Source of the DNA: Pseudomonas putida
Lineage (GTDB): Bacteria > Pseudomonadota > Gammaproteobacteria > Pseudomonadales > Pseudomonadaceae
Reading direction: 5' to 3'
Length of the DNA: 64,000 bases
Assembly: GCA_041879295.1 (NCBI GenBank)
Contig: CP047152.1
Coordinates: 4,345,501-4,409,500, forward strand
In this document: in pieces, positions 19,666 through 62,482 of the stretch
Numbering within the stretch: position 1 is the stretch's first letter
Layout of the letters: each line of letters starts with the position of its first letter
The notes under the pieces: generated by a model
What the model saw: the letters and a program-made list of their open reading frames with translations, nothing else
What the model was told of the DNA's origin: nothing
The model's database searches: none
Program-made: the position numbers and the translations under genes

Positions 19666-19742
19666 TGGCGCAGCGGACGGGACTCGAACCCGCGACCCCC
19701 GGCGTGACAGGCCGGTATTCTAACCGACTGAACTACCGCTGC
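19666..19742 (-). tRNA. tRNA-Asp (GTC), copy 1
   Basis: A 77-nt cloverleaf read on the minus strand: acceptor GCAGCGG paired with CCGCTGC, anticodon loop CTGTCAC with anticodon GTC, T-loop GGTTCGAGTCC and encoded CCA. It is nearly identical in the body to E. coli tRNA-Asp. It lies 13 bases after tRNA-Val in the same transcript. Confidence 0.96.
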
Positions 19743-19755
19743 GCTATACATCGAG

Positions 19756-19831
19756 TGGTGGGTGATGACGGGATCGAACCGCCGACCCTCTGCTTGTAAG
19801 GCAGATGCTCTCCCGGCTGAGCTAATCACCC
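19756..19831 (-). tRNA. tRNA-Val (TAC), copy 1
   Basis: A 76-nt cloverleaf: acceptor GGGTGAT paired with ATCACCC, anticodon loop CTTACAA with anticodon TAC, T-loop GGTTCGATCCC and encoded CCA. It is the first gene of the Val-Asp unit. Confidence 0.96.
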
Positions 19832-19852
19832 ATGTCTCTCGGTGTGGCGCGC

Positions 19853-19881
19853 ATTCTACGGGCGACTTGGCGCTCTGGCAA
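19853..19881 (-). promoter_or_regulatory. Sigma-70 promoter of tRNA unit 1
   Basis: On the minus strand TTGCCA (19881-19876) and TAGAAT (19858-19853) are separated by 17 bases. They are followed by a GC-rich stretch (GCGCGCC) that fits the discriminator of stringently controlled stable-RNA promoters. The same promoter precedes unit 2. Confidence 0.75.
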
Positions 19882-19932
19882 GCACTTATCGAAGTTTTTT
19901 CACACTTCGATCAAACACCAAAAATCAGGCAC

Positions 19933-19958
19933 AAAAAAAGCGACCCTAAGGTCGCTTT
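19933..19958 (-). terminator. Terminator of tRNA Val-Asp unit 2
   Basis: Stem AAAGCGACC/GGTCGCTTT followed by seven Us on the minus strand. It differs from the unit 1 terminator by one base in the loop region (CTAAGG for CTAGGG). It separates the two units, which therefore transcribe independently. Confidence 0.85.
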
Positions 19959-20001
19959 CTTTGTTACTTCCGGGTGTTCAGTGGGCCCTGGAAGTGGAAT
20001 A

Positions 20002-20078
20002 TGGCGCAGCGGACGGGACTCGAACCCGCGACCCCCGGCGTGACAGGCCGGTATTCTAACCGACTGAACTACCGCTGC
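20002..20078 (-). tRNA. tRNA-Asp (GTC), copy 2
   Basis: Identical to copy 1 and offset by exactly 336 bases, with the same cloverleaf and encoded CCA. Confidence 0.96.
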
Positions 20079-20091
20079 GCTATACATCGAG

Positions 20092-20167
20092 TGGTGGGTG
20101 ATGACGGGATCGAACCGCCGACCCTCTGCTTGTAAGGCAGATGCTCTCCCGGCTGAGCTAATCACCC
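20092..20167 (-). tRNA. tRNA-Val (TAC), copy 2
   Basis: Identical to copy 1 and offset by 336 bases. It leads the second Val-Asp unit and is preceded by its own promoter. Confidence 0.96.
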
Positions 20168-58390: not shown

Positions 58391-60649
58391 CTACACCACC
58401 CCGAAACGCACCTCCACCGACAGACTGCCCAGGTTATCGCTCAGGCCAGCCCCGTAACGCCCGTCCAGGTCGTCATTGATGCACAACTGCAACTCACCTT
58501 GCTGGCCGCGCGGCAATTGCACCTGGTTGCCGACCAGGAACGGCACGCCGCTGTTGCCGATACGCCCGATCAACGCCCCTTCCGGTTGACCGGGCATGGC
58601 ATAACCGGACTTCGCGATCAACCTTGGGTTGCCCGCCGCGCCGACCATCCCGGTGGCCGGGTTGGCCGTCCACTGCCCGCCCGTACAGACCGCCAACTGC
58701 CAGCTCTGCCCATTGACCTGCATGCCCGTGCCCTGCCAAGCCTGGTTGGCCTGCACCTGTACGGTGCACTTAAGCAGGTCGCTGGCCACCACGTCAGCGG
58801 CCTGGAAGGTCAACGCGGTAATGGTCAAGGTCGGGTTGGCGGTGCCGGTGGTGGGGAACACGCCGTCGCCGACCAGGAACAGGTTGGGGTGGTCCCAACT
58901 GCGCTGATCCTTGTCCACCACCGACTTGGTGCGGTCCGAGCCCATGCGGTAGGTGCCCATCAAGTGGCCAGCGCCGTAGAACGCGTAGTTCTGGCCGTCG
59001 TACTCGAACACCGTCTGCGAACCGGGCTCGAGCTTAGGGTTCAGGTCGGTCAGCTCGGTGGCGCCCATCAGCTCGGTGATGATGTGCGTGGCGGCCAGGC
59101 GCGCCTGCTTGAAACCCTCCTTAGTGTAGTCGGACAGTTCGTAGGTGATCTGTGGCCGAGGCAGGCCCAGGCCGTCGGTGAACTCCGTGCTCCTCTCCAC
59201 CCGGCAAAGCGCTTTGTCAGGGTCTTTCTCCACCTGTTCGATCAAGAAGCCCAGACGGAACTGGCGGGTCAGCACGCTATTGAGCTGCTGCACCAGCGCC
59301 TGGCCGGACAATGCCAGCTTGTTGGGGTTAGCGCCGCCATGGTTGGTGCCGTCGATGAAATCGCAGACTGAGGTGTAGGGGTCGTTTACCGACCAGTTCC
59401 AGCCCTCGTTGCCGATTTCGATACGCCAGGCGGCACGCTGGCTGCGGAACGGGCCATCGCGCATGTCCTCGATCCCCGAGGTGGACAATGGCCCACGGAA
59501 CGGGAACAGCGGCTTGCCTTCGGGCATCAGGCCCCAGGCCAGGTACACCGGGTGGTCAGCCAACGCCTGGCCGACCTGGCCGCTACTGTTGGCGACCCCT
59601 TTAGGGCTGTTCGGGCCGATGGAGTTGAGCAGCAGTTTCGGTGTTTCGATCGCGTGGGCGGCAATCACGTAACGTTTGCCCTGGGCCGTGCCGTTCTGGC
59701 GCGTACCATTGTTCTGGTACTGAATGAAATCGATTCCCGTGACCCCATTGGCATCGACCTGCACCTGGCTTGCCACGGTCTGGTAGAGGATGCGCACGTT
59801 GCCGGTATCCAGTGCCTTGGCCATGGTCACGGTGGCGTCGTACTTGGCCTGGATCGGGCAGATCGGCGTGCAGCTGGTGTTGCCAGCGCACACCCGGCGG
59901 CCGTTATCATTCTGCGAGTTGCGCCCGGCCGGGGTCTGCCGGACATTGAGGGTGACGCCTGGGTACGGCTTGCCGTCGGGCCCCTTCTCCGGGCTCTGGT
60001 ACACCGTCCCCGTGACGTTCTTGCCCAGGCCCTGGTCGACCAGCGACGGCGGGATGCCATGCATGCTGTATTTGTAGCCATGCGGGAAGGTCACGCCCAG
60101 GTAAGTCTGCGAGGCGACGTCGGCAGACACGCCCATCTCCTCTTCGGCGCGGCAGTAGGCGATCTGCAGGTCGTCGTAACTGATCGGCCAATCGACCCCG
60201 ACGTTGTAGGCAGTGCGCATGCGAAAGTCGTTGGGCAGCAGGCGCAAGGCCGTACCCATCCAGTGCCACATGGTGCCCCCGCCTACCCGCTCGTAAGTGC
60301 TGGCGAACAGTTGCGGCCCCTTCTGCACCAGGTAGCTCTTCTGCGCCTTGTTCGGGTCTTGGCTACCCGCGGTGATCAGGTCCTGGATGGTCGCCCTTGG
60401 CGCGAACTGCGTGGCCGGGGTCTGCTCGCTCTGCTCAGGTGGGTACGGCGACTCGGGCGCTTTGAGCACCGCGGTGTAAAAGCGCTCCAGGTACTCGCTG
60501 CGATTCGGCGGAATGGCCGGGCCCGATTCGAGCACCAGCACTTTCAACCCGGCCAGGCCCAACTGGTAGGCCATGACACTGCCGGCCATGCCGGCGCCCA
60601 CCACGATCACATCGGCGGTTTCGATGTTCTGGGTTTGTACATTGCTCAT
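58391..60649 (-). CDS. GMC-family flavin dehydrogenase with a C-terminal PA-IL (LecA)-like lectin domain
   Basis: A 752-residue protein. Residues about 10-620 are a GMC oxidoreductase: FAD-binding VIVVGAGMAGSVMAYQLG, TYERVGGGTMWHWMG, PICPIQAKYDATVTMAKAL and the C-terminal active-site half GHLMGTYRMGSDRTKSVVDK...LFLVGDGVFPTTGTANPTLT. The last 125 residues (about 628-752) resemble the galactose-binding lectin LecA: GALIGRIGNSGVPFLVG, ELQLCINDDLDGRYG and SGSF-like LGSLSVEVRFG, in the same order as in LecA. The flavoprotein oxidises an alcohol or sugar; electrons would go to the small-subunit/cytochrome partners encoded just upstream. It lacks an own signal peptide. Its ATG overlaps the small-subunit stop by four bases. 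Confidence 0.88.
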   Translation of the reverse strand: MSNVQTQNIETADVIVVGAGMAGSVMAYQLGLAGLKVLVLESGPAIPPNRSEYLERFYTAVLKAPESPYPPEQSEQTPATQFAPRATIQDLITAGSQDPNKAQKSYLVQKGPQLFASTYERVGGGTMWHWMGTALRLLPNDFRMRTAYNVGVDWPISYDDLQIAYCRAEEEMGVSADVASQTYLGVTFPHGYKYSMHGIPPSLVDQGLGKNVTGTVYQSPEKGPDGKPYPGVTLNVRQTPAGRNSQNDNGRRVCAGNTSCTPICPIQAKYDATVTMAKALDTGNVRILYQTVASQVQVDANGVTGIDFIQYQNNGTRQNGTAQGKRYVIAAHAIETPKLLLNSIGPNSPKGVANSSGQVGQALADHPVYLAWGLMPEGKPLFPFRGPLSTSGIEDMRDGPFRSQRAAWRIEIGNEGWNWSVNDPYTSVCDFIDGTNHGGANPNKLALSGQALVQQLNSVLTRQFRLGFLIEQVEKDPDKALCRVERSTEFTDGLGLPRPQITYELSDYTKEGFKQARLAATHIITELMGATELTDLNPKLEPGSQTVFEYDGQNYAFYGAGHLMGTYRMGSDRTKSVVDKDQRSWDHPNLFLVGDGVFPTTGTANPTLTITALTFQAADVVASDLLKCTVQVQANQAWQGTGMQVNGQSWQLAVCTGGQWTANPATGMVGAAGNPRLIAKSGYAMPGQPEGALIGRIGNSGVPFLVGNQVQLPRGQQGELQLCINDDLDGRYGAGLSDNLGSLSVEVRFGVV

Positions 60650-61137
60650 GGCTGCTGCCCTTCCTTGGCGTCGACACCGGTGAATTGCTTAAGGGTCGGT
60701 GGCTGCTCACCCCAGTATCCGAAATGGAACTGGCTGTAGCCCATGGGGTGGGATTGGGCGATCCTCCACGCCCAGCTCTCCTTGTAGGCCTGGTCGGAGA
60801 CCACACGCGTATCACCCGTGCGCGCGTTGCCCAGGTCGTAGGGTTGATACCAACTGCCGAGCAACCACAGCTTCATGATCGAGCGGGCGCCTTGGGCAAT
60901 TTGCGGGTTCGCGTTATCGAGCACGGCACTGGCGATTTGCGCAGGCGGCTGGCTCTGGATGCCGGCGTACAGCTCCAGCAGGCTGCTGAACGCCTCGAGG
61001 CCCATGCCTTGCTGGGCGGTGGCGAAGAACACCGGCGGCAGGTTGATCGGGTCGACGGACGGCGCCAGCAGCTTGGCCGACAGGCCAGTGAGCACGGCGG
61101 ACAAGCCGATGAAGTTTTGCAGGTTCTGGTCGCTCAT
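60646..61137 (-). CDS. Small subunit of the GMC dehydrogenase (sorbitol/gluconate dehydrogenase type)
   Basis: A 163-residue protein from ATG 61137, with GGAGTGAT before it. Its opening (NFIGLSAVLTGLSAKLLAPS) and helical body (AFSSLLELYAGIQSQPP, QGARSIMKLWLLGSWYQP) fit the small subunit of membrane-bound FAD sorbitol and gluconate 2-dehydrogenases, which stabilise the flavoprotein. The end MGYSQFHFGYWGEQPP is compatible. Known small subunits carry a twin-arginine signal that also exports the large subunit; here I see no RR motif, so localisation is open. Confidence 0.75.
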   Translation of the reverse strand: MSDQNLQNFIGLSAVLTGLSAKLLAPSVDPINLPPVFFATAQQGMGLEAFSSLLELYAGIQSQPPAQIASAVLDNANPQIAQGARSIMKLWLLGSWYQPYDLGNARTGDTRVVSDQAYKESWAWRIAQSHPMGYSQFHFGYWGEQPPTLKQFTGVDAKEGQQP

Positions 61138-61141
61138 GGCA

Positions 61142-62482
61142 TCACTCCTTGGCGCCGGTGGATTGGGCACGTTCAAGCAGGAAAGTGAAATCGGCGAAGC
61201 TGGTGCGCGGTGACTGAGTCACGCGGGTGGTCGCGTTGTTGTGGCACTCCATGCAGCTGGACGAGGCTTGGGGGGTAGTGCCCTGGTTGTAGGTCTCCAG
61301 GGTGGCGTTGGCCAGGAAGTTCGGCGCAGGCGTACCTAACGGGTTGGTCGGCGACGGCACCTGGCAGTCATCGGCCGGGGCGGTGGGCCACTGGGTGCTG
61401 ATCAGGTGGTAGTTGGCCCACACCGTGCCCTTGAGCGCACCTTGCCACTGCGCGTTGAGCTGTTGGGTGGCGGCGGTGACGGGAATTTCACGCACGATCT
61501 GCGAGGGGATGGCCTTCTTCGACGGGTCCCACGGTTGCGCGGGCGGCTCGTTCACCGGGCGATCGCTGGCCTGGGCGTCGTAGAACAGGTAGGGCCCCTT
61601 GCGCTCGTTCATTGGCGTGGTCTTTTCCGGCACGTTGCGCACGTGCTCGAACGTCGACCATACCCACTGCGGTGCGCCCTGGGTCTTGTGCACGATGTGC
61701 AGGCCTACCAGTCCGACCTTTTGTGCATTGCACGACTCGGGGATCACCGCCCCCTTGTTCGGGTCGGCATTGCCGGGCGTATAGACCAGCGCGTCGACGG
61801 CGTGGAATTCCTGCGGGTTGTCGCTGCCATCGAGCACTTTCCAGGCCGACTTGACCATGATCGCGCCAACCTGCCGGGCTTTTTGCGAACCGCAGGCGAA
61901 AGCAATGCGGTTGTCGGCCTTGCTCAGGAACGCTTGCTGGCCTTCCTTGCTGTACAGGCCATTGTTGACGATGTCATCGAACATCGGCTTGTTGACCATG
62001 ATCGCGTTGCGCGTGTAAGTGCCACTTTGGTCGACCAACGGGCCGGTCTTGAACGGCTGGATGAACTCATCGAGCACGCCGGCGACCTTGCCCATCTGCT
62101 GCAGCACCGGCAAGTCACCCTTGCCTTGGCAGGCCGCGGGCACTGGCGCCTGCTGGTCCCAGCCAACAGGTTTCTGTCCCTTGGGCAGGAAGATCTCGTA
62201 GCTTTCTTTCCACGACTCCCACACCGTCTTTCCGGGTGCGCCGATCTGCGCCGAGGTGTTGGCGCTGCCGTCGGCGTTGGCGGGCCAGTTCAGGGCGACG
62301 AAGGTCTGCCACGACAGCACGTCGAAATCGTGTTGCAAGCTGTCCAGCGTGAAGGGGGGATTGGCGGTGACGTCGAAGGGAACTGCAGGTGACAGCACCG
62401 GCGGGCTGGCCGCATCGGCCATGGCGAGCGCACTGGTGAAGCTCGCACCCAGGCACGCCAACCGTTTCAGGGTTATTTTCAT
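61142..62482 (-). CDS. Exported c-type cytochrome-like protein with one C-terminal heme motif
   Basis: A 446-residue protein with a Sec signal (MKITLKRLACLGASFTSALA, cleavage near ADA). Only one heme-binding motif occurs, CMECH, about 40 residues from the end (SSSCMECHNNATTR), so the 400-residue body is not a multi-heme cytochrome. The body contains LSWQTFVALNWPANADG, HIVHKTQGAPQWVWSTFEH and GTVWANYHLISTQWP, which I cannot place in a named domain. It is the first gene of the operon; its stop is four bases before the small-subunit ATG. It may accept electrons from the GMC flavoprotein in the periplasm. Confidence 0.8.
   Translation of the reverse strand: MKITLKRLACLGASFTSALAMADAASPPVLSPAVPFDVTANPPFTLDSLQHDFDVLSWQTFVALNWPANADGSANTSAQIGAPGKTVWESWKESYEIFLPKGQKPVGWDQQAPVPAACQGKGDLPVLQQMGKVAGVLDEFIQPFKTGPLVDQSGTYTRNAIMVNKPMFDDIVNNGLYSKEGQQAFLSKADNRIAFACGSQKARQVGAIMVKSAWKVLDGSDNPQEFHAVDALVYTPGNADPNKGAVIPESCNAQKVGLVGLHIVHKTQGAPQWVWSTFEHVRNVPEKTTPMNERKGPYLFYDAQASDRPVNEPPAQPWDPSKKAIPSQIVREIPVTAATQQLNAQWQGALKGTVWANYHLISTQWPTAPADDCQVPSPTNPLGTPAPNFLANATLETYNQGTTPQASSSCMECHNNATTRVTQSPRTSFADFTFLLERAQSTGAKE

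Follow-up and report, generated by a model that had tools for sequence, protein, structure and literature searches.

Pseudomonas aeruginosa has a known stand-alone adhesin, LecA (PA-IL). Among fungal enzymes, the cellobiose dehydrogenases are sugar dehydrogenases of the GMC type and can have a CBM1 at their C-terminus. In LecA, calcium holds O3 and O4 of galactose, with Asp100 and Asn107 near, and His50 and Gln53 contact O6, as described in PMC10243309. EclA of Enterobacter cloacae was presented in 2024 as the first LecA domain fused to another domain; in the account given there, the crystal structure has calcium bound through Asp114, Asp121, Asn122 and two main-chain oxygens, and no ligand for the domain is reported to have been found "despite intense efforts" (PMC11875179). 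The FAD glucose dehydrogenase (FAD-GDH) family is described as being exported by a small subunit acting as Tat hitch-hiker and as possessing a three-heme cytochrome, and Cys213 of the FAD-GDH alpha subunit as forming a disulfide to the small subunit close to the Fe-S cysteines (PMC9727119).

Here we examine a 64,000-nucleotide stretch of Pseudomonas putida DNA (the window), in which an intact open reading frame at 58391..60649 encodes a 752-residue GMC flavoprotein dehydrogenase with a C-terminal LecA-fold module; this and all other window coordinates given below lie on the minus strand.

The dehydrogenase and its three-gene cassette

Residues 1-625 of the protein form a GMC flavoenzyme, as judged from both Pfam and PDB relatives. 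The two GMC domains score above their cut-offs (PF00732, 44.1 bits against 23; PF05199, 72.8 bits against 24.6), and the closest solved relative of the catalytic part is the FAD-GDH of Burkholderia cepacia (6a2u, E 1e-80), followed by fructose dehydrogenase (FDH; 7w2j, E 4.8e-65). The sequence opens with a Rossmann FAD-binding motif, GAGMAG (residues 18-23; 60581..60598). Further along, C254-x5-C260-x3-C264 (59858..59890) aligns with the cysteines of the Fe-S region of B. cepacia FAD-GDH, His562 (58964..58966) with the GMC active-site His of FAD-GDH and FDH, and Asn605 (58835..58837) with the GMC active-site Asn. All five residues fall on residues of the same type in both 6a2u and 7w2j and are invariant in 29 aligned rows (full-length rows for His562), so that the cysteines expected for an Fe-S cluster in the alpha subunit of a heterotrimeric FAD-GDH or FDH are all in place. 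We take His562 and Asn605 to have the corresponding active-site roles. At position 255, where a second Cys stands in FAD-GDH, the protein has Ala, and on our reading of the alignment Ala255 would be the counterpart of FAD-GDH Cys213. We likewise take PP_1661 of P. putida KT2440 to be the probable orthologue of the fused protein. One proteomics paper, where it mentions PP_1661, names it 'Dehydrogenase subunit, putative'.

Upstream of the GMC gene lie two further genes. The first encodes a small subunit similar to that of FAD-SLDH (163 residues from the ATG at 61137; 60646..61137), whose stop codon overlaps the GMC start in ATGA; at 19.0 bits it falls below the cut-off of PF12318 (24.2), as do two of three homologues (23.4 and 20.7), while the one from Symploca passes (29.1). 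The second encodes a 446-residue protein (61142..62482) of no Pfam family, with an N-terminus that looks signal-like by eye and a single C-terminal heme-c motif, CMECH (residues 410-414; 61241..61255). For comparison we assembled 57 loci, 56 from a peptide search plus one tailless Pseudomonas locus (L015). The set is not random, since one of the six peptides used as queries falls within the module. Within the retrieved stretches a match to the cytochrome was present at 54 of the 57 loci and to the small subunit at 53, and all three genes were kept in 15 of 15 stretches compared. This family of 446-residue CxxCH proteins, for which there is no Pfam model, neighbours the genes for the GMC protein and the small subunit in different phyla, and some homologues outside Pseudomonas appear lipoprotein-like by eye. 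At one locus, from P. putida KH-21-134 (L097), the GMC gene is reduced to a remnant covering residues 439-596; the cytochrome is matched there, the small subunit is not, and the cassette looks decayed.

Together these features suggest an FAD dehydrogenase specified by three genes and akin to the FAD-glucose and fructose dehydrogenases, with the GMC protein as its catalytic (alpha) subunit. Its FAD would oxidise a sugar or other alcohol, and electrons would pass from FAD to an Fe-S cluster on C254, C260 and C264 and from there to heme c in the cytochrome encoded alongside. Exactly one CxxCH was found in each of the 16 Pseudomonas-type cytochromes checked, not the three of the known family.

A Tat-like motif (RRx[FLIVMY]), which known relatives carry, was found in the first 40 residues of none of the 53 small subunits, with the Met closest to the start of the window's own small subunit taken as residue 1, so that a start far upstream would be missed. 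No signal was evident on the alpha subunit and no signal peptide was seen on the small subunit. In a crude hydropathy test, a hydrophobic N-terminus was detected in 40 of 52 cytochromes, compared with 3 of 53 among the small subunits and 4 of 117 among the module carriers; for the GMC proteins the test was uninformative, with 39 of 54 positive, probably owing to their hydrophobic first Rossmann strand. On these tests the alpha/small-subunit pair is apparently leaderless, unlike the presumably exported cytochrome. A sigma-70 promoter scan found none, terminator-like sites were close to chance level, and a search of plasmid DNA gave no match. Elsewhere in the window, a tRNA-Asp/tRNA-Val pair occurs in two tandem copies (19666-20167).

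Predicted fold and putative calcium site of the C-terminal module

The module spans residues ~628-750 (58400..58768). An AlphaFold2 model of this part alone has a pLDDT of 94.6, and Foldseek/VIA searches with the model match LecA, PllA and EclA, which points to a predicted LecA beta-sandwich. A LecA-like domain at the C-terminus of the dehydrogenase, proposed in an earlier note from a by-eye alignment, is thus recovered as a separate LecA-fold domain, and the likeness now has the better support of fold, profile alignment and conservation. Modelling the full-length fusion yielded a mean pLDDT of 63.8, too low to place the domains.

Sequence searches were less direct. The PA-IL family model PF07828, which the earlier note had proposed as a check, matched neither the whole 752-residue protein nor the cut-out domain; it matched one of 17 module rows (E 5.1e-4), and the whole protein carrying that row (P0088) reached 16.0 bits against a cut-off of 22.5. 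Two relatives do exceed this cut-off, P0309, which also has a GH64 domain (27.2 bits), and P0204 (26.4 bits). When the 17-row profile was aligned with hhalign to three PF07828-recognised domains, L001, L030 and P0204, it scored 36.8, 82.2 and 66.0, respectively, against 100 shuffled controls each that never rose above 18.0, 20.0 and 21.9. One more template, L041, had been picked up with the same profile rather than by PF07828, and scored 56.0 against a shuffle maximum of 18.4. Searched against PDB sequences, the profile gave no LecA among matches up to E 10, and in a protein database (85 hits among 2528 candidates) no hit was named LecA, P0204 being the only one with a PA-IL name; a single-sequence comparison of the tail with LecA was weak (E 0.19). 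The missing PF07828, PDB and protein-database matches are outweighed by the fold result, and on the profile alignments the relationship between LecA and the module is one of homology, beyond a shared fold alone. PF07828 itself gave no match in the genome of the window, one among 38 relatives and one among 274 genomes of the class; the 14 control genomes gave no match either, so that these scans do not establish absence. One Pseudomonas protein of 338 residues (L001:1483-2499) joins an N-terminal PA-IL domain to a different C-terminal part; its genome (G011) also holds the GMC fusion.

The putative Ca2+ site consists of N725-D726-D727 (58469..58477) and D738-N739 (58433..58438), so that the side-chain ligands expected of a LecA-type site (an Asp, then Asn-Asn or Asp-Asn) are present in the sequence. 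Conservation was assessed in 330 module copies from 325 proteins, reduced to 290 distinct copies, 79 borne by GMC proteins and 211 by other proteins. Among the GMC-borne copies, N725, D726, D727, D738 and N739 are kept in 78, 76, 78, 78 and 78, respectively, and among the others in 208, 208, 203, 203 and 204, the remainder being gaps and a few other letters. These residues rank among the most conserved positions of the module, although the count overstates independence, as the copies were gathered with an alignment holding those residues and include many close kin. The ligand Asp that had been read as retained is thus near-invariant, as is the Asp-Asn that had been noted in place of the LecA Asn pair. 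An Asp-Asn pair is compatible with calcium, since EclA is described as binding Ca2+ through such a pair (PMC11875179). The loop from Tyr-Gly to Asp-Asn is, in the alignment, four residues longer than in LecA, and the geometry of the site may therefore differ.

Galactoside specificity found no support. Ile678 and Ser681 align with His50 and Gln53 of LecA, in a weakly aligned stretch, and residues 676-682 contain neither His nor Gln, leaving the galactose O6 contacts without equivalents. Some relatives may keep part of this contact: 23 of the 79 GMC-borne copies have His at 677 and 99 of the 211 others have Gln at 680, each only one place off. Given the absent His50 and Gln53 equivalents and the EclA domain for which no ligand was found, the ligand of the Pseudomonas module is probably not simple galactose.

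Distribution of the module on GMC dehydrogenases and other proteins

Within the genus, 20 of 199 genomes gave a single copy of the module each, at most 21 candidates being scored in any genome, and in the same 20 the fused protein was matched over nearly its full length. Across the phylum, where 10 candidates were scored in each genome, the module turned up in 3 of 398 genomes, that of the window among them; the other two belong to a single genus and gave weaker module matches (E 6e-9 and 7e-8). The fusion, whose spread the earlier note had asked about, occurs at 32 of the 57 loci, always in the GMC frame, in 31 Pseudomonas and one gammaproteobacterial MAG. The remaining 25 loci include Lysobacter, Pedobacter, Mucilaginibacter, Acidobacteriota and Symploca, and their frames (the broken L097 aside) stop no more than 26 residues from the end of the catalytic match (residues 617-627). 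In one Pseudomonas cassette (L015:4159-6168) the GMC protein stops at the boundary of the module. This naturally tailless enzyme, useful for comparison, shows that the module is not essential to the enzyme.

In a tree of the catalytic part (56 rows, the short rows L095 and L097 left out, with a long-branch warning for the outer rows), the 33 module rows, window included, form one supported clade together with tailless L015. This topology requires two changes, yet a tree that groups all module rows in a single clade could not be rejected (p-AU 0.076), which leaves a loss in L015 unproven. Most simply, the tail would have been gained once in this Pseudomonas-type clade, added after residue ~627, with L015 as an early branch or a loss.

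The module is not confined to GMC proteins. A search with both modules of P0088 matched 220 proteins; among the 120 matches listed, Pfam assigned tyrosinase to 22, PF26676 to 10, decarboxylase (PF12588/PF02666) to 7, ferritin-like to 3, and amine oxidase, GH64 and GH72 to 2 each, with no Pfam family for 72. Its position varies among carriers, being N-terminal, internal (for example inside a tyrosinase) or C-terminal, and P0088 and P0091 hold tandem copies. Three tyrosinase-family proteins (P0088, P0207 and P0208) have two LecA-like modules mid-protein, those of P0088 lying inside the tyrosinase region. Short carriers occur, by database names, in Photorhabdus, Archangium and Vibrio splendidus. 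In addition, L041:1474-2631, one of the two weaker phylum matches, has an N-terminal LecA-like module on a protein that appears RTX-like by eye, with Gly/Asp-rich repeats.

The presence of relatives on many other enzymes suggests an overlooked family of glycan-targeting modules. We tentatively extend this to a broader reading, which may well prove wrong, that the CINDD...GLxDN module represents a widespread, unrecognised LecA-fold subfamily for calcium-dependent glycan targeting on many leaderless enzymes (GMC dehydrogenase, tyrosinase, amine oxidase, ferritin-like, decarboxylase, PI-PLC-like and glucanases), with LecA as its stand-alone offshoot. If true, LecA would become one member of a general enzyme-targeting class, its fold occurring with an intact calcium site on metabolic enzymes of several phyla, and a large set of unannotated proteins would gain a testable function.

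A proposed tethering role and comparison with known systems

As a whole, the observations are explained best, in our somewhat guarded judgement, by a module that tethers the enzyme. By homology and conservation, it would hold calcium at NDD...DN, bind vicinal hydroxyls of a glycan and, like a carbohydrate-binding module, fasten the dehydrogenase to a polymer or surface bearing, or near, its substrate. This is favoured by the LecA fold, the hhalign scores above all shuffles, the near-invariant NDD and DN and the calcium ligands of EclA, as well as by the mobility of the module among enzymes and the tailless homologues of other phyla that stop near its boundary; the enzymatic part draws support from the 6a2u and 7w2j matches, the aligned residues and the frequency of the cytochrome and small-subunit genes. 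Against it count the missing galactose contacts, the related EclA domain without a found ligand, the poor full-length model, tailless L015 and the PDB profile search that missed LecA. Furthermore, contact with glycans outside the cell is hard to explain for an alpha subunit without evident signal and a small subunit without a Tat motif (53 of 53). If true, the protein would be a natural enzyme that both binds and oxidises surface glycans, with a possible use in sensors, for which the FAD-GDH family is described as already studied (PMC9727119).

The main rival is an assembly role, in which the calcium site stiffens a multimerising fold and sugar binding has been lost. Descriptions of LecA and PllA as tetramers and of the N-terminal domain of EclA as a dimer without known ligand (PMC11875179) fit such a role, as do the galactose contacts not kept in the Pseudomonas protein. 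We nevertheless consider it rather unlikely, since the calcium/ligand site hardly varies among unrelated partner enzymes, beyond what an interface needs, and the tandem copies suit avidity equally well. Substrate capture is less probable still: LecA is described as binding catechols via the same calcium (PMC12684298), and the partners include tyrosinase-family and other small-molecule oxidoreductases, so that the module might bind a non-glycan cis-diol, for example a catechol or polyol, or the soluble substrate of the enzyme itself, but GH64- and GH72-type glucanases are also partners, and glycan targeting is simpler there. That the tail is a generic GMC extension resembling LecA by chance, as the weak single-sequence score, the lack of a Pfam match and the PDB profile search might suggest, is nearly refuted by the confidently predicted LecA fold, in addition to the shuffle controls, the module on non-GMC enzymes and the tailless GMC homologues.

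Among known systems, the proposed union of a sugar dehydrogenase with a sugar-binding module has a parallel in fungal cellobiose dehydrogenases with CBM1, which likewise unite a GMC sugar dehydrogenase, a carbohydrate-binding module and a cytochrome but differ in having an unrelated binding fold, a heme b domain in the same chain and fungal secretion. The statement of the earlier note that no enzyme of this kind had been described was in this respect too wide. What looks new is the LecA-type module, and a search of the open-licence literature found no account of one on an enzyme. The module differs from LecA (PF07828) in not being found by that family model, in lacking the His50 and Gln53 equivalents, in the longer loop before Asp-Asn and in being fused to an enzyme. 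It resembles EclA, whose N-terminal LecA domain is likewise part of a fusion protein and is described as having Asp and Asp-Asn calcium ligands with the galactose residues not conserved (PMC11875179). With the FAD-GDH of B. cepacia and with FDH, as described in PMC9727119, the Pseudomonas system shares a GMC alpha subunit with cysteines of the Fe-S region and genes for a small subunit and a c-type cytochrome; it is set apart from them by a cytochrome with one CxxCH in place of three, a small subunit in which no Tat motif was seen, and an alpha subunit with Ala255 for the second Cys and an additional LecA-fold tail.
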